A stretch of 64,000 nt of DNA, taken from contig NZ_JACIEZ010000003.1 of the NCBI RefSeq assembly GCF_014197145.1, positions 372,001-436,000 of the forward strand. Reading direction: 5' to 3'. The notes under the pieces are model-generated. The model was not told the DNA's origin and searched no databases. It was given only the letters and a program-made list of their open reading frames with translations. The stretch is from Gellertiella hungarica (GTDB taxonomy: Bacteria; Pseudomonadota; Alphaproteobacteria; Rhizobiales; Rhizobiaceae). The translations under genes and the position numbers were made by a program. This document shows positions 4,163 to 13,236 of the stretch, one piece after another (positions within the stretch are counted from its first letter, which is position 1; the number at the start of each line of letters is the position of its first letter).

Positions 4163-4194
4163 TAAACGTTTATATTGACCGATATAAACGTTTA
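4163..4194. promoter_or_regulatory. Paired LacI-family operator heading the carbohydrate operon
   Basis: A 13-bp perfect inverted repeat with a 6-base centre contains two copies of the self-complementary decamer TAAACGTTTA at 4163-4172 and 4185-4194, 22 bp apart centre to centre, about two helical turns. A palindrome with a central CG flanked by AAA/TTT is the usual LacI-family operator form, and a LacI-type gene is in the operon. TTGACC at 4175-4180 could serve as a -35 element, so a bound repressor would occlude it. No convincing -10 was identified. The site lies between kdsA and the ATPase gene, so an effect on kdsA is possible but unproven. Confidence 0.8.
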
Positions 4195-4254
4195 ACATTT
4201 CGCATCTGCACAAATGCTGCGGCATTGCGAAGGCGCATGGGGAGGTGCCGCGCA

Positions 4255-5432
4255 TTGGCTCCGGTTCAGATTAAGGGATTGAAGAAGGCGTTCGGGTCGC
4301 ACCCGGTCTTGAAGGGCATCGATCTCGATATCCGCGACGGGGAATTCGTATCGTTCCTCGGTCCGTCTGGTTGCGGCAAGAGTACCTGCTCCGGCTGATC
4401 GCCGGGCTTGAGGAGCCCACGGACGGGCAGATCCTGCTCGGGGGACGGGACGTTACGGATCTGCCTTCCGCCAAGCGCAACATCGCGATGGTCTTCCAGT
4501 CCTACGCGCTCTATCCGCATATGTCGGTGCGCAAGAACATGGCCTTCGGCCTGTCCTTGAATGGCATGCCACGGGCCGAGATCGAACGTCGCGTGGCGGC
4601 AGCGGCGCAGATCCTGCAGATCACGGAGTTGCTGGAGCGGAAGCCCAAGCAGCTCTCCGGCGGCCAGCGCCAGCGGGTGGCCATCGGCCGCGCGATTGTG
4701 CGCGAACCCGTGCTCTTCCTTCTCGACGAGCCGCTTTCCAACCTGGATGCCGGCTTGCGCGTCAGCATGCGGGTGGAACTGGCCGCACTGCACGAGCGGC
4801 TGAAGACGACAATGATCTACGTTACCCACGACCAGGTGGAGGCGATGACGCTCTCCTCGCGCGTGGTGGTGCTGGACAGGGGTACGGTGAGCCAGTTCGG
4901 AACGCCGCTGGAACTCTTCTACCGGCCAGCGAACCTCTTCGTGGCCGGGTTCATCGGCTCGCCGAAAATGAACTTCTTCGAGACCGCCTCCCGGGGCGCG
5001 GACGGGCAGGACATCACCGTATCGGGCGAAGGCTTCGGCCGTCCCGTGACGGTGGGGCTCGAGCGGCCGGTGCCCTGCCCGTCCGGCACCCGGCTGACGC
5101 TCGGCATCCGGCCCGATGCCCTGGAGATCGTGGCCGCCGGCAGCGGTCACGTGGCAGCATCGGTCGATCTGGTGGAACGGCTCGGCACGGAAAGCCATGT
5201 GCATCTGCATCTTCAGGCCAGCGGGCAGCGGGTCACGGCCATCGTCCGCGGCAATCATCCCGTCCAGTCCGGCGATCGGGTCGACCTCTCTTTCGATCCT
5301 GCCCGGTGCCACCTTTTCGACGCCGGCGGAGAGGCCTTGCCGCGCGCGCTCGATGCCGAAACCCGGAGCCTGATCGACCGGGAGAAACAGATCAGGACCA
5401 GCCTTTCAACCGAGGAGGAAACCCATGCATAA
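4255..5432 (+). pseudogene. Frameshifted sugar ABC transporter ATP-binding protein (UgpC/MalK type)
   Basis: ATPase of a carbohydrate importer. The likely start is TTG at 4255, 9 bases after GGGGAGG. The frame reads through GPSGCGKST and then falls into a stop at 4396-4398, while the expected continuation LLRLIAGLEEP is in the next frame. Restoring one C at about 4386 (ACC-CTG-CTC instead of ACC-TGC-TCC) repairs the frame and gives about 392 residues. The rest is intact: Q-loop (MVFQSYALYP), signature LSGGQRQRVAIGRA, Walker B LLLDEPLSNLDA-like segment, H-loop (YVTHDQ) and a C-terminal TOBE-type regulatory region. A TTG at 4371 could start a fragment lacking the P-loop, which could not hydrolyse ATP. 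Either a true inactivating mutation or a sequencing error. It overlaps the next gene by 8 bases. Confidence 0.85.
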
Positions 5433-6657
5433 CGCCTTCAAGAGAACAGCCGGAGCGCTTCTGGCCCTTGCGCTTGCCAGCTCGGCCGCATTCGCCGAAC
5501 AGGTGCTGCGCTTTGCCACCTGGGACAGCGACGAAAGCCTCGCCATCCAGCAGGCCATTGCCAAGAAATTCGAGGAAGCCCATCCGGGCGTAAAGGTACA
5601 GGTCGAAGCCTATGGCGGCGACGGCTACGACCAGAAGCTGGCGGCCGGCTTCGGGGCGGGCAACCCGCCCGACGTGATGTACATGTGGAACTTCCCGCAG
5701 TACCACAGCTCGCTGATGCCTCTCGACGATCTGATCGCGAAGGATGCCGCCGCCCTCGACATAAAGGACATTCCGGAAGGCCTGCTCAACGCTTCCCGTA
5801 TCGATGGCAAGACCTATGGCATGCCGGCCGGCTTCACCACCCATGTGATCTTCTACAACAAGGACATGTTCGCGAAGGCGGGCGTCGAGGAGCCCAAGGA
5901 AGGCTGGACCTGGGACGACCTGCGCGCCAAGGCGGCAAAGTTCCGCAACGAGGCCGACAAGACTTACGGCTTTGCGGTCGATGCAAAACCCGATCCCTTC
6001 GATTTCGAACAGTTCCTCTGGTCGAACGGCACCAAGTACATCTCCGACGACGGCAAGACGCTCGACGGCTACATGAACAGCAAGGAAGCCGCCGAAGTGC
6101 TGGACATGTTCGGCGCCATGGCGAAGAACCAGGAGGCCGCGACGGTCAATGTCGGCGAAGTCACCTCCGCAAGCGCGCTCTTCAAGGGCGGCAAGATAGC
6201 AATGCTGGAAGGCGCGATGTGGAACAAGTCCGGCATCGACGAATCCGGCGTCAAGTACGGTGTTGCCTATCTCCCGGCCTTCAAGGGCAAGCCGGTGCAA
6301 TCGGCGATTTCCATCTCGGCCATGTCGATCGCCAAGGATGCCAAGGAGCCGGACCTCGCCTGGGAGTTCGTCAAGTTCTACACCTCGCCCGAAGCCATCG
6401 CGATGCGCAAGAACGACCTGCCGGTCCGCACCAGCGTGGCCGAAAGCCAGGGGATGACGAAGGATCCGGTTTACAAGCCCTTCTTCGACGTGCTGGCGGT
6501 TTCCAACAAGGAGCGTCCCGCCTTCCTCAAGAACCTGAAGTGGGCGCAGATCCAGGAAAACCTCGCCCTCGCGATCGAGGCCGCGATTACCGAACAGGGC
6601 AATGCGCAGGCCCATCTCGATGAAGCCGTGAAGCGCTCGCAGCGCTTCCTGAAGTAA
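5425..6657 (+). CDS. ABC transporter extracellular sugar-binding protein
   Basis: A 410-residue family-1 (MalE-like) solute-binding protein that delivers an oligosaccharide or related sugar to the permeases encoded next. The N-terminus is a signal peptide with a Lys/Arg start, an Ala/Leu core and a probable cut after AFA (residue 24). The mature start VLRFATWDSDES and the NPPDVMYMWN segment near residue 80 are typical of the cluster 1 sugar binders. GAGGAG precedes the ATG, which lies inside the 3' end of the ATPase gene. The exact substrate cannot be read from the sequence. Confidence 0.9.
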   Translation: MHNAFKRTAGALLALALASSAAFAEQVLRFATWDSDESLAIQQAIAKKFEEAHPGVKVQVEAYGGDGYDQKLAAGFGAGNPPDVMYMWNFPQYHSSLMPLDDLIAKDAAALDIKDIPEGLLNASRIDGKTYGMPAGFTTHVIFYNKDMFAKAGVEEPKEGWTWDDLRAKAAKFRNEADKTYGFAVDAKPDPFDFEQFLWSNGTKYISDDGKTLDGYMNSKEAAEVLDMFGAMAKNQEAATVNVGEVTSASALFKGGKIAMLEGAMWNKSGIDESGVKYGVAYLPAFKGKPVQSAISISAMSIAKDAKEPDLAWEFVKFYTSPEAIAMRKNDLPVRTSVAESQGMTKDPVYKPFFDVLAVSNKERPAFLKNLKWAQIQENLALAIEAAITEQGNAQAHLDEAVKRSQRFLK

Positions 6658-6693: not shown

Positions 6694-7623
6694 ATGGCCG
6701 CAATGCAGGCGGGCAAGCGCAGGGCGCGCTTCTCCATCACCCCTTATCTGTTCATCTCTCCCTGGGCTCTGGGTTTCCTGTTCTTCACCCTCGGGCCGCT
6801 CGTCTTCTCGCTGACGATGAGTTTCTACGACTGGCCGGTCGTGGGCGAGCGCACCTTCGTGGGCCTCGACAATTACCGCACGATGCTGATGGACGACCCG
6901 ATGTTCTGGGAAAGCCTCGGCATTACCTCGCGATTTGCGCTGATCTACGTACCCTTCAACATCGTGCTGTCGTTCCTGCTGGCGCTTCTGCTCCATCATG
7001 CAAGGTTCGGCGTCGGCTTCTTCCGCACCGCCTTCTATCTGCCGAGCGTGATATCGGGCGTGGCGCTGGTGATGATCTGGAACTGGATCTACAGCAGCGA
7101 ATACGGCCTCCTGAACTACATGCTCTCCTTTGCCGGCATCGGCCCCGTCAACTGGCTGGGCGACAAGAACCTGGCGGTGGTGGCGATCATCGTCGCTTCG
7201 CTGTGGGGCCTCGGCGGCACGATGCTCATCCTGCTCACCGGTCTCAAGGGCATACCGCGCGAGCTTTACGAAGCCGCAACCGTTTCGGGCGTTCCGGGAT
7301 GGGCGCAGATGCTCTTCATCACGCTTCCCATGCTGGGGCCGATGCTTGTGTTCACCTTCATCACGTCGATCATTGCCGCCTTCCAGCAGCTCACCATCGC
7401 GCTGCTTCTCACCAAGGGCGGCCCCCAGAACGCCACCTATTTCTTCGCCATGTACATCTACGACAACGCCTTCAAGTTCTACGAGATGGGTTATGCCGCC
7501 GCCGGATCATGGATCATGTTCCTGATCGTGCTGGCGCTGTCCATGCTGGTCATGCGCTGGTCTGCAGCGTGGTCCTACTACGAGGGAGAACTGAAATCGA
7601 AGGACGGAGGCCACGATGCGTAA
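6694..7623 (+). CDS. ABC sugar permease, MalF/UgpA type
   Basis: A 309-residue inner-membrane permease with six predicted helices; the first follows a basic N-terminus and reads PYLFISPWALGFLFF. The EAA loop that contacts the ATPase is present in the form PRELYEAATVSGVPGW around residues 188-203. A GGGGAGG lies about 9 bases before the ATG. The last 8 bases overlap the second permease, a sign of translational coupling. It should pair with the 7616-8428 product to form the channel. Confidence 0.92.
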   Translation: MAAMQAGKRRARFSITPYLFISPWALGFLFFTLGPLVFSLTMSFYDWPVVGERTFVGLDNYRTMLMDDPMFWESLGITSRFALIYVPFNIVLSFLLALLLHHARFGVGFFRTAFYLPSVISGVALVMIWNWIYSSEYGLLNYMLSFAGIGPVNWLGDKNLAVVAIIVASLWGLGGTMLILLTGLKGIPRELYEAATVSGVPGWAQMLFITLPMLGPMLVFTFITSIIAAFQQLTIALLLTKGGPQNATYFFAMYIYDNAFKFYEMGYAAAGSWIMFLIVLALSMLVMRWSAAWSYYEGELKSKDGGHDA

Positions 7624-8428
7624 GCTCTTCATTCACTCCGCCCTCACCTTCCTTGCCGTTCTCTTCATCCTGCCCTTCTACTGGACGTTCCTCTCCGCAG
7701 TGAAGAGCACGGCGGAGCTCTACCAGTTTCCTCCCGTCTTCTGGCCGGCGGAGTGGCATTTCGAGAACTTCCTGACGTCCTGGAACAAGCTGCCGTTCAA
7801 CACCTTCCTCTGGAATTCCACCGTCGTGGTGGTGCTGTCGACCATCGGACAGCTGATCTCCTCGTCCCTGGTCGCCTTCGGCTTTGCGCGCTTCCGCTTT
7901 CCCGGCCGCGACGCGCTGTTCATCCTGCTGCTCGCGACCATGATGATCCCGTGGGACGTGAAGATGATCCCGCTCTACATGGAGTTCAACTATCTCGGCT
8001 GGATCAACACGCTGAAGCCGCTTATCGTGCCTTCCTGGTTCGCGGATGCCTTCTTCGTCTTCATGCTGCGGCAGTTCATCATGACGATCCCGCTGGAGAT
8101 CGACGAGGCTGCGCGCATGGACGGCGCATCGAGCTTCGATATCTTCTGGCGCATCCACCTGCCGCTGATGACCCCTGCGCTGATCCTTGTCGGCACCTTC
8201 CACTTCATGAATGCCTGGAACGACTATCTGGGGCCGCTGATCTTCCTGAACGACCAGTCGAAATACACGCTGACACTCGGCCTCGCCCTCTTCAAGGACC
8301 CGCATGACATCGACATCACGGCCGTGGCGTCCATCACCACGCTGCTGTGCGTGCCGCCGCTGGTGCTGTTCTTCTTCGCGCAGCGCTACATCATGGAAGG
8401 CGCTGTCGGCTCGGCGGTGAAGGGATAG
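7616..8428 (+). CDS. ABC sugar permease, MalG/UgpE type
   Basis: A 270-residue partner permease with six predicted helices and the EAA loop PLEIDEAARMDGASSF. The start overlaps the previous permease by 8 bases and is preceded by GGAGG. Members of this family form heterodimers with the MalF-type partner. The next gene starts 3 bases after its stop, so all these genes are probably one transcript. Confidence 0.92.
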   Translation: MRKLFIHSALTFLAVLFILPFYWTFLSAVKSTAELYQFPPVFWPAEWHFENFLTSWNKLPFNTFLWNSTVVVVLSTIGQLISSSLVAFGFARFRFPGRDALFILLLATMMIPWDVKMIPLYMEFNYLGWINTLKPLIVPSWFADAFFVFMLRQFIMTIPLEIDEAARMDGASSFDIFWRIHLPLMTPALILVGTFHFMNAWNDYLGPLIFLNDQSKYTLTLGLALFKDPHDIDITAVASITTLLCVPPLVLFFFAQRYIMEGAVGSAVKG

Positions 8429-8431
8429 GCC

Positions 8432-10129
8432 ATGCTTTTCGACTTCGAACGCATTCCCTTCAGCCGCGCAGACCGGTTCCTGACGCTCTCGCGGATGACG
8501 GAAGGCGATGGCACCCGCGCCACATGGCTTCGCCACGTCTCGGGCGGCGACGAGCGGCCCTCGCTGGGGCGGCTCTGCGAGATGATTTTCCTGGGCGCCC
8601 AGGGTGTGTCGGTCGAGCCCCGCTTTACGCTCGAGCCCTCGCGGCTCGTGGCGGAGGCGGATGGCAACCGGATCGAATTCGTCATCGGCAGGGGCGAGAC
8701 GCTGCACATGAAGGGGCGTGGCCTGGGCTTGCTGCTGAAGCTCAAGGGATCGCGATACGACTACGCCTTTCGCACGCCGGCCGGAGAGCACTGCGTTGTC
8801 GCTTCAGGCGAAAATCTGAAGATACGCCCGCTGGCTTCGGGAACCGCCCTCGATGTGTCCGGCCAGTGGCGCCGCGACCATGCAGAGGATGTGTCGATCA
8901 GCTTTGCTCCTTCGGCTGCCTGGGAGGGCTCGCTGGAGCTGTTCGAGGTCATGCCCCCGCCAGAGCACCCGCTCCCCTTCGCCGATGCCCGGGCGGATGC
9001 GGAAGCGGATTTCGCCGGCTGGTTTGCCCGCATGCCCCTTGCCCGCGCGGGGGAGGAGGAGGTGCATCGGCTAGCGGCCACGCTTTTGTGGGCCAACCGC
9101 GTTCCGCCACGGGGGCTTCTCACCCGACCCTCGATCTTCATGTCCAAGAACTGGATGATCAACATCTGGAGCTGGGACAACGCGTTCTCGGCGCTGGGCG
9201 TCCATCGGGCCGATCCCGCTCTGGCCTTCGACCAGTTTGCAGCAATCTTCGATCACCAGCACGAGAGTGGCTGCCTGCCCGACTTCGTCAATGACCGGCA
9301 CATGCTCTTCGCCTTTACCAAACCGCCGGTTCACGGCTGGGCGGTCCGGCTCATTCACGACAGCAACCCGCAATTCCTGACACCCGAGCGGCGTGCCTAT
9401 CTCGCCCGCACCATCGGGGCGCAGGTGGAATACTGGCTCGAGCACACCCGCGCCGATACGGATAGCCTGCCCACCTATTTCCACGGCAATGATAGCGGCT
9501 GGGACAACGCCACATTCTTCGCCGAGGGGGGACCGGTAATGTCGCCCGACCTCCCGGTCTTTCTCATCCTCGCCTGCGAGACGCTCTGCGATCTCCTGCT
9601 TGAGGATGCCGCAGCGATTGCCCGCTATCGCAGGACAGCGGACAAGCTGTTCACGCTGCTGGTGGAGTGGCTGTGGGACGGAAACCGCTTCCGTGCCCGG
9701 CTTGTTGCCGATCCGGACCGGCGACTCCCGCAGCAGAGCCTCGTGCAGTTCATGCCGCTGCTTCTGGGAAGCCGGCTGACCGGAGCGATCAGGCAGAAGA
9801 TGCTGGACGCGCTGAAGGGCGACGGGTTTGTCACCGAATGGGGACTGGCAACCGAGAGCACAGGCAGCTCGCTCTACGAGGCGGACGGCTACTGGCGCGG
9901 TCCGATCTGGGCGCCGACGACGCTGCTGGTCTGGGACGGACTGCGACGGCAGGGCGAGACGCAGCTAGCCGAGGAAATCGCGCGCCGCTTCTGCCGCATG
10001 GCTGCCCTGAACGGTCTCGCCGAAAATTTTGACGCCCTGACCGGGCGCGGTCTCAGGGATCCGGCATTTGCATGGACCTCGGCGGCCTATCTCCTGCTCT
10101 CGGACAGCCTCGGAGACAGCGGCCAATGA
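8432..10129 (+). CDS. GH63/trehalase-like glycoside hydrolase
   Basis: A 565-residue protein with no evident signal peptide, so probably cytoplasmic and acting on the imported sugar. The first 200 residues look beta-rich. From about 215 to the end it resembles an (alpha/alpha)6 barrel of the GH63/MGH1-like group, with the diagnostic segment YWRGPIWAPT at 487-496. By analogy with GH63 enzymes, Asp358 in SGWDN is a candidate general acid and Glu531 in AENFD a candidate base. Families of this kind cleave alpha-glucosidic bonds, mannosylglycerate or glucosylglycerate; the substrate here is unknown. Its stop overlaps the regulator start (ATGA). Confidence 0.78.
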   Translation: MLFDFERIPFSRADRFLTLSRMTEGDGTRATWLRHVSGGDERPSLGRLCEMIFLGAQGVSVEPRFTLEPSRLVAEADGNRIEFVIGRGETLHMKGRGLGLLLKLKGSRYDYAFRTPAGEHCVVASGENLKIRPLASGTALDVSGQWRRDHAEDVSISFAPSAAWEGSLELFEVMPPPEHPLPFADARADAEADFAGWFARMPLARAGEEEVHRLAATLLWANRVPPRGLLTRPSIFMSKNWMINIWSWDNAFSALGVHRADPALAFDQFAAIFDHQHESGCLPDFVNDRHMLFAFTKPPVHGWAVRLIHDSNPQFLTPERRAYLARTIGAQVEYWLEHTRADTDSLPTYFHGNDSGWDNATFFAEGGPVMSPDLPVFLILACETLCDLLLEDAAAIARYRRTADKLFTLLVEWLWDGNRFRARLVADPDRRLPQQSLVQFMPLLLGSRLTGAIRQKMLDALKGDGFVTEWGLATESTGSSLYEADGYWRGPIWAPTTLLVWDGLRRQGETQLAEEIARRFCRMAALNGLAENFDALTGRGLRDPAFAWTSAAYLLLSDSLGDSGQ

Positions 10130-11190
10130 CCACGAATGCCGATGAGTCCCGGCCCACCATCAAGACGATCGCCTTCGAGACGGGCCTTTCCATCGCCACG
10201 GTTTCCAAGGCGCTCAAGGATTCGCCCCAGGTGCGCCCCGAAACCCGCGATCTCGTGCAAGAGGCAGCGCGCCGCATCGGCTATCAGCGCAACCTGCATG
10301 GTGTCAGGCTGAGGACCGGGAAGACCTATCAGGTCGCCGCCATCATGACGGCGCCCGGTTCCCGGCAGGACGAATGGGAGGGCGTGGAATACGCCCAGCT
10401 TCTTTCCGGTATTTCCTTCGCGCTCGAGGGAACGCCCTATCGCATCGTGCCCTACACCGTACGCGACTTTGCCGAGAGTCAGGAAATGGTGCGCCAGATT
10501 GCGGAACAGCGAAAGGCAGACGGGATCATCATCTCCGGCATCCGTTGCGACGACCCGCGAATCCGCACGCTGCAGCAGGCTAAGATGCCCTTCGTCGCCT
10601 ATGGGGTCGGGCTTTCCAACGCGCCGCATGCCTCTGTCGACACGGACAATGACTGGGTCATGCGTGATGCAATCGAGCGCCTGTCTGCCCGTGGCCACCG
10701 CCGCATCGCGCTGCTCAACCCGCTGCGGGAATACAGCTGGGGCATGACGCGCCTGGTCGCCTACCGCAATGCCCTGGCAGAACGCGGCTTGCCCTTCTCC
10801 GACGCTTTCGTCGCGGAGGGTCGGCTTACGCCGGCCTTCGGGCGGGAAGCGGTGCTCGGCATGTGCCGGGAGGCCAGCCGGCCGACGGCCTTCATCGCCG
10901 CAAACGAGGCGGCGGCCCTGGGCGCGGTCTCCGCACTCCACGAGATCGGGCTTGTGCCCGGACGGGATGCGGTGGTGATCGCCACCGACGATCTGAACGT
11001 CAGCCGTTACTTCGTGCCGCCCATCACCACCTACTACCTGCCGATTTCAGAGCCGAGCACCATGCTCGGCCAGTTCATCCTGCGCCGCATGGCGGGCGAG
11101 CCGGTAGACCGGCTTCAGGCCCTGCTGCGCCCCACCCTCATCGAACGCAATGACGATGCCTGCCCGGAGGCAGGCGCCGCCCAAGCCTGA
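10126..11190 (+). CDS. LacI-family transcriptional regulator of the carbohydrate operon
   Basis: A 354-residue regulator starting at the ATG that overlaps the hydrolase stop. An N-terminal LacI helix-turn-helix covers about residues 10-55 (TIKTIAFETGLSIATVSKAL), followed by a periplasmic-binding-protein-like sensor domain. It is encoded inside the operon, so if it binds the paired operator at 4163-4194 it would control its own expression. Such regulators are usually released from DNA by a sugar related to the transported substrate; some members instead activate. The ligand is not deducible from the sequence. Confidence 0.93.
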   Translation: MTTNADESRPTIKTIAFETGLSIATVSKALKDSPQVRPETRDLVQEAARRIGYQRNLHGVRLRTGKTYQVAAIMTAPGSRQDEWEGVEYAQLLSGISFALEGTPYRIVPYTVRDFAESQEMVRQIAEQRKADGIIISGIRCDDPRIRTLQQAKMPFVAYGVGLSNAPHASVDTDNDWVMRDAIERLSARGHRRIALLNPLREYSWGMTRLVAYRNALAERGLPFSDAFVAEGRLTPAFGREAVLGMCREASRPTAFIAANEAAALGAVSALHEIGLVPGRDAVVIATDDLNVSRYFVPPITTYYLPISEPSTMLGQFILRRMAGEPVDRLQALLRPTLIERNDDACPEAGAAQA

Positions 11191-11220
11191 CATCATCACA
11201 ACTTTCCAAGGAGCTTGCCC

Positions 11221-13236
11221 GTGTCCTCCACCGTGCAAAGCCGGGTCGATGCGACCTCGACTGATCTCACCCCCGCAATGCTGGAGCTCGGGGTCTGTTA
11301 TTATCCCGAGCAATGGCCGCGGGAGAAGTGGCCGGAAGACGCCGCCCGCATGGTCGAACTCGGCCTCGACTGGGTCCGCATAGGCGAATTCAGCTGGTCT
11401 GCCGTGGAACCCGAGCCGGGCCAGTTCGACTGGAGCTTCATGGACGAGGCGATCGACGTTCTCGGCAAGGCCGGCCTGAAGGTCATTCTCGGCACGCCGA
11501 CGGCAGCGCCGCCAAAATGGCTGATCGACCGTCATCCGGACATTCTGGCGGTTGGACCAGACGGCCACGTCCGACGCTTCGGCGCCCGGCGTCATTACTG
11601 CTTTTCCAGCAGGACCTATTTCCGCGAGGCGGCCCGCATTACCCGCGCCTTCGTGGAGCGCTACGGCCATCATCCCTTCGTCAGGGCCTGGCAGACCGAT
11701 AACGAATATGGCGATCACGATACGATCTACAGCTACTCCGCCGAGGCAGAGCGCGCTTTCCGGCTGTGGCTCGAAAACCGGTACGGGACGATCGATGCCC
11801 TGAACGAGGCCTGGGGTACCCGCTTCTGGTCGATGCGCTATCGCCATTTTGACGAGGTGGACCTGCCGCTGCATGTGGTGGAAGAGCCGAGCCCGACGCA
11901 TCTCGTGGATTTCGTCCGCTTCTCTTCCGATCAGGTGGTGCAGTTCAACCGCCAGCAGGTGGAGATCATCCGGGCCGGTTCCCCGGGAAGGCCCGTGACC
12001 CACAACTTCATGTCTCACAACATCGATTTCGATCATTTCAAGCTGTCCGAGGATCTCGATGTGGCTTCCTGGGACGTCTATCCGATGGGCGGACTCATCA
12101 ACGGGCGGCTTCCCGACGAGGAAAAGGCGCGGCTGCTGAGAACCGGCGACCCGGACCAGGTGGCCTTCAACCACGATCTCTACCGGGCAGCAGGAAGGGG
12201 CCGCGTGTGGGTGATGGAACAGCAACCGGGACCGGTGAACTGGGCCGCTCACAACCAGGCACCCGCCGACGGCATGGTGCGGCTGTGGACATGGCTGGCT
12301 TATGCTCACGGCGTGGACATGGTGGCCTATTTCCGGTGGCGGCAGGCGCCCTTCGCGCAGGAACAGTTCCATGCGGGCTTGCTTCTGCCGGACTCCACGC
12401 CGGATCAGGCCTTCCATGAGACGGCAACCGTCGCGGCGGAGCGGGAACGCCTGCCGAAAAACCGGCAAAGGGAACGGGCAAAGGTGGCACTCGTCATGGA
12501 TTACGAGTCCCGCTGGGCTAGCCGGGCCTTGCCGCAGGGACGCACCTATCAGGCCTCTGCCATCTGCCTCGACTGGTATGCCGCGCTCTCCCGCCACGGC
12601 GTCGACATCGACATCGTGAGCCAGGAGAGCGATCTCGAGGGCTATGCGCTCGTCATCTGCCCCGATCTCCTCATTCCCAACACCGGCTTCATCGAAAGGC
12701 TGAAGGCATCGCAGGCAAAAGTGCTCTTCGGGCCCCGTTCCGGCAGCAAGACGCCCGACATGCATATCCCGGACGGCTTGCCTCCGGGACCGCTCCGCGA
12801 TCTGATCGACATCCGGGTGACGCGCGTGGAAAGCCTGCCTTCCCCCGAAAGCGAAACCGTGCTTCACGGCAACCGCAGCTTCGCCGCGGGAACGTGGAGG
12901 GAAACGATCGAGACCGGCGAATCGGTACTGGCCACCTTCACGGGAGCCTATCGTCCCGGCAGTCCGGCGCTGGTCGGCAATGCGGGGGTGCGGTATCTGA
13001 CGGCGCTTCCCTCTCGTGAGTGGCTCGACGCCCTCATGCGCGATTGTCTGGACTGGGCAGGCATCTCATGGCTGCCGGACCTTGGCGACATCCGGCTGGC
13101 GCGGCGCGGCGACCTCACCTTCGCCTTCAACTTCGGGACAGAGGCAAAAGAGCTGCCAATCCCTGCAAATGCGGGGATTCTGGTAGGGGAAAGCTATCTT
13201 GAACCGGCGGGCGTCACCATCTGGAGACACATCTGA
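11221..13236 (+). CDS. GH42 beta-galactosidase
   Basis: A 671-residue enzyme of glycoside hydrolase family 42, which releases terminal galactose (sometimes arabinose) from beta-linked oligosaccharides. Domain order is catalytic TIM barrel (about 20-390), trimerisation domain (about 400-600) and a small C-terminal beta domain. The acid/base is Glu162 in TDNEYG and the nucleophile Glu333 in VMEQQPGP. There is no signal peptide, so it is intracellular. GTG at 11221 is preferred because AAGGAG lies 7 bases upstream; an in-frame TTG at 11215 is too close to that site. It is the last gene of the operon. Confidence 0.93.
   Translation: MSSTVQSRVDATSTDLTPAMLELGVCYYPEQWPREKWPEDAARMVELGLDWVRIGEFSWSAVEPEPGQFDWSFMDEAIDVLGKAGLKVILGTPTAAPPKWLIDRHPDILAVGPDGHVRRFGARRHYCFSSRTYFREAARITRAFVERYGHHPFVRAWQTDNEYGDHDTIYSYSAEAERAFRLWLENRYGTIDALNEAWGTRFWSMRYRHFDEVDLPLHVVEEPSPTHLVDFVRFSSDQVVQFNRQQVEIIRAGSPGRPVTHNFMSHNIDFDHFKLSEDLDVASWDVYPMGGLINGRLPDEEKARLLRTGDPDQVAFNHDLYRAAGRGRVWVMEQQPGPVNWAAHNQAPADGMVRLWTWLAYAHGVDMVAYFRWRQAPFAQEQFHAGLLLPDSTPDQAFHETATVAAERERLPKNRQRERAKVALVMDYESRWASRALPQGRTYQASAICLDWYAALSRHGVDIDIVSQESDLEGYALVICPDLLIPNTGFIERLKASQAKVLFGPRSGSKTPDMHIPDGLPPGPLRDLIDIRVTRVESLPSPESETVLHGNRSFAAGTWRETIETGESVLATFTGAYRPGSPALVGNAGVRYLTALPSREWLDALMRDCLDWAGISWLPDLGDIRLARRGDLTFAFNFGTEAKELPIPANAGILVGESYLEPAGVTIWRHI

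Follow-up and report, generated by a model that had tools for sequence, protein, structure and literature searches.

An apparent one-base deletion directly after Walker A in the ATPase gene of a sugar-uptake operon of Gellertiella hungarica

The ATPase gene at the front of a sugar-uptake operon of Gellertiella hungarica appears one base short in the 64,000-nucleotide stretch analysed here (the window), which raises the question of whether the gene has been broken by mutation, misread by the sequencer or is translated across the break. The frame that opens at TTG 4255 on the + strand encodes 47 residues, with the C-terminal end GPSGCGKSTCSG, before a premature TGA at 4396–4398; Walker A (GPSGCGKST) occupies its codons 36–44, upstream of the break. 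The −1 frame of the same strand (4380–5432) continues as LLRLIAGLEEP to its own stop with no internal stop codon. Placed against intact relatives, the missing base falls at 4385–4386, within a short run of Cs immediately past Walker A, leaving a 5' piece at 4255–4398 and a 3' piece at 4387–5432; from 4255 to 5429 the gene is 392 codons minus one base. A preliminary description, made from the letters alone, had read the locus as an otherwise intact 392-residue ATPase, open through GPSGCGKST and then shifted by a one-base deletion. Translation bears this out, and the two pieces and the frames of the relatives agree on the position, direction and length of the change. An alternative in-frame ATG lies upstream at 4237, and TTG 4255 is the likelier start on our inference because the ribosome-site-like GGGAGGTG (4240–4247) sits between the two.

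The pairing of the two pieces is not a matter of chance, because they align to adjoining parts of the Pfam ABC_tran profile (1–26 for the 5' piece, 27–136 for the 3' piece) and because 67 protein queries in a homology scan gave the identical −1 switch at this site; an additional antisense row in that scan, from nine queries, reports the same lesion. Jointly, though not in one frame, the pieces form an ABC_tran domain with Walker A and, in the −1 frame on the + strand, the Q-loop (4488–4502), LSGGQ (4653–4667), Walker B (4713–4733) and the switch His (4818–4832). The regulatory TOBE/OB region is represented in the C-terminal part by TOBE_2 (PF08402; 52.9 bits, cut-off 21), and OB_MalK scores 23.5, below its cut-off of 27. 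With the two pieces scored apart, the best NCBIfam model for the 3' piece alone is UgpC at 388.3 bits, under the cut-off of 432, and MalK reaches 381 bits, under 568; we do not claim either name for the protein. Its motifs, together with the sugar-binding protein and the two permeases encoded beside it, mark the gene as coding for an ordinary sugar ABC importer ATPase of the MalK/UgpC type, the class named CUT1. It differs from that class in the base missing after Walker A, which puts its pieces in two frames. The closest named match is from Ensifer adhaerens, at 66% identity.

The rest of the operon, which ends at 13236, lies on the + strand and is intact. Downstream of the ATPase gene follow the sugar-binding protein (SBP_bac_1, 5425–6657), two permeases (BPD_transp_1, 6694–7623 and 7616–8428), an MGH1-like glycoside hydrolase (8432–10129), a LacI-family regulator (10072–11190, longest-ORF coordinates, so that its real start may lie further downstream) and a GH42 beta-galactosidase (11215–13236). 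The earlier statement that the neighbouring genes are open holds for these downstream ORFs, which match the expected families. Upstream of the operon, a perfect operator-like palindrome at 4164–4193 has 12-base arms and a 6-base centre (AAACGTTTATAT, six bases, ATATAAACGTTT); it was the one match in the 64-kb window, against none in 100 shuffles, and is conserved upstream of the orthologous operon of the same-genus genome G003. The palindrome probably serves as operator for the LacI-type regulator, which would be expected to bind it.

A LacI-type gene stands between the glycosidase and GH42 in the operons of G001 and E. adhaerens. The operon of G003 (contig C50, L115:10903–10991) has none at that place and keeps the operator-like site; the closest LacI-type protein of G003, on C14, is 66% identical to the operon's regulator. 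A second LacI-type regulator in the G. hungarica assembly, at C8:9942–10964, is 67% identical to it.

The preliminary description had proposed comparison with close relatives as a check, and this was run. The genus of the assembly (G000; 4.77 Mb, 36 contigs) is represented by four other species, and orthologous operons were compared from G001, G002 and G003; that of G003 is the nearest, at 81% DNA identity. At the break point the ATPase is in frame in all four orthologous operons (G001, G002, G003 and E. adhaerens). A motif check of 111 loci, relatives and paralogues together, found 93 in frame and none only out of frame, the strict pattern giving no match at the remaining 18. A 29-base junction spanning the site, allowed up to three mismatches, was found in one of the 394 family genomes searched, namely G. 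hungarica itself. The lesion is thus private to this genome. When 510 plasmid records were searched for a second strain, the 20 matches listed were 75–79% identical and started at least 1294 bases into the query, and none of these 20 covers the lesion.

No second lesion was found in the ATPase gene in comparison with G003. Its 3' part has a dN of 0.10 and a dS of 0.71 against that genome, next to 0.04 and 0.62 for the sugar-binding protein, 0.06 and 0.72 and 0.04 and 0.63 for the permeases, and about 0.13–0.14 and about 1.1 for the two glycosidases. The dN/dS of the ATPase is the highest among the operon genes compared, by a small margin, and clearly below 1. The gene was under purifying selection up to the break. 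On this ground, and for want of a second lesion, an old pseudogene is rejected, and a single lesion private to one genome is what a recent pseudogene presents.

A homology scan for frame breaks covered 1.656 Mb of the 4.77-Mb assembly and 1376 called ORFs, with 971 ORFs from 1.17 Mb of G003, the genome's own ORFs and 829 ORFs from 81 further loci as queries; an ORF was testable when a non-self homologue covered at least 60% of it, as held for 1037. After inspection four breaks stand, the ATPase and three other private one-base losses, in genes for a solute-binding protein (SBP_bac_6; C1:677690, L248:17690), an EamA permease (C1:735195, L251:15195) and an ABC ATPase (C1:260518, L208:518) whose branched-chain amino acid type rests on a weak BCA_ABC_TP_C match below cut-off. 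By net length, which shows the direction of a change and not its exact position, the matches are longer by one base, or by an equivalent number modulo 3, in all three comparisons at the sugar ATPase (G003, G001 and G002), in 18 of 18 long matches at C1:677690 (one of them an own paralogue), in the single match at C1:260518 and in five of six at the EamA gene, where the sixth, from G007, is off by two bases and does not fit. Neither insertions nor confirmed nonsense changes were seen in the scanned 1.656 Mb.

Several other candidates fell away. The ORFs of G003 against the assembly gave 351 testable cases and 24 flags, of which two are frame changes (the sugar ATPase and the binding-protein gene at C1:677690) and the others stops inside alignments; three stops left after the filter all fall in the opening 45 residues of ORFs taken from their furthest-upstream start, and were read as upstream or antisense sequence. 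Frame switches at C2:55203 and C2:97350 were dropped on reading the DNA, as they appear at or just upstream of the starts of opposite-strand genes (hrcA-like and small-heat-shock-like), and one at C1:438480 because it pairs implausible ORFs at low identity. A TGA inside a LacI-type gene at C6:31010 disappeared when a closer query was used. Run on G003 as a control, the scan gave six sites; DNA was read at one of them, which makes the comparison of rates a weak one. At that site, C3:34795 (L150:14795), an A run has gained one base, and a gene for an FMN oxidoreductase is broken by it.

We lean slightly towards a real, recent and private loss-of-function deletion in the ATPase gene over a sequencing error, as a matter of judgement and not of calculation. 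The privacy of the lesion, the lack of a second one, the dN and dS of the 3' part and the sparseness of breaks (four in 1.656 Mb) count in favour of a real deletion. A sequencing platform limited by homopolymers would be expected to go wrong at long runs before anywhere else. The tested stretches hold 259 homopolymers of six bases or more and 1360 of five; none of the 259 coincides with any of the four breaks, and the break at C1:260518 falls where four G run into three C. Real mutations are favoured because the breaks avoid long homopolymers and because all four genes serve transport, when errors should strike genes at random. This bias was noticed after the fact and is partly a search bias, because two of the four breaks were detected only via paralogues; as a crude count that leaves solute-binding proteins uncounted, the 1037 tested ORFs include 34 ABC-ATPase-like and 125 multi-pass membrane proteins.

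An error of sequencing or assembly, in which a base of the short run went uncalled and the true ATPase gene is intact, is a serious competitor that we place somewhat short of even. An ATPase with no other lesion, held under purifying selection, is what it predicts, and the slightly elevated dN/dS of the 3' part was itself counted against a real deletion. A single G or C is missing at each of the four private breaks, a uniformity that fits undercalled bases. According to PMC3711429, homology-validated singleton frameshifts are expected to reflect errors of sequencing rather than true indels, and it is this expectation, together with the uniform direction of loss, that favours an error. The ATPase break shares with the singletons described there a homology-validated frame transition that is present in one genome only and unconserved, and nothing evident sets it apart; the break is an ordinary case of a known kind, the singleton frameshift.

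Recoding, in which ribosomes would slip by −1 after Walker A and so make the full ATPase, has the attraction that the −1 frame continues directly and that the normal protein would result from slippage at the right codon. It also agrees in direction with programmed −1 ribosomal frameshifting, for which the bacterial slippage motif is given in PMC4066793 as Z_ZZN or X_XXZ_ZZN; the ATPase site differs from such frameshifting in having no slippery motif at a useful place and in being unconserved. A useful shift would have to come after codon 44. No X_XXZ_ZZN heptamer occurs in 4255–4398, and the three in-frame Z_ZZN tetramers (4275, 4302 and 4314) all precede Walker A, which a slip there would lose; after Walker A neither motif was found in this stretch, where GGGG at 4339 is the sole homopolymer of at least four bases. 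Because there is no slippage motif after Walker A and the frame change is unconserved, the relatives being in frame, recoding at this site is very unlikely. Of the three origins offered at the outset it is the one that falls, on the missing motif and the frames of relatives, while recent mutation and sequencing error both stand. Re-initiation at TTG 4371, from which the −1 frame is open to 5432, would give a shorter ATPase beginning MRQEYLLRLIAG, and we reject it as highly improbable: the product lacks the Walker A lysine and threonine, and an ATPase product without them should not hydrolyse ATP.

Under a real deletion, then, the ATPase of this sugar ABC importer would have been hit very recently by a private one-base loss just after Walker A that is present in the cell. 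Translation of the sequence as read stops at codon 48, and this copy would yield no working protein. If the importer nonetheless works, an intact paralogous sugar ATPase might energise its two permeases; if it is not so powered, uptake through it would be lost. Seven paralogues from the same genome share 38–52% identity with the 3' part of the ATPase, and five of the seven carry GPSGCGKST in an open frame. Genes for intact paralogous ATPases lie near C1:88319, C8:61438, C6:27084, C1:920772 and C2:136326. A search of the genome with ABC_tran, in which 150 of 202 candidates were scored, gave 129 rows, among which several others are partial. Borrowing of a shared ATPase is plausible because intact paralogues exist and because multitask sugar ATPases have been published (PMC7658222, with sharing also reported in PMC4519317). 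As with the MsmX and MsmK of those accounts, several related sugar ATPases coexist here; the examples given there come from Bacillus and Streptococcus, whereas in G. hungarica a paralogue is only a candidate for the role. That the deletion is real and that the importer also runs on a paralogous shared ATPase is, as a joint proposition, improbable.

The significance of the finding beyond annotation is little. The gene should carry a frameshift flag, and it should not serve as a basis for claims about sugar uptake in this strain. Were the deletion real, ATPase sharing among the sugar importers of the group could be tested in a simple way with this strain; and if the importer were indeed running on a paralogue, the locus would capture a Gram-negative bacterium in the course of losing a dedicated ATPase, with the binding protein, permeases and glycosidases still intact.
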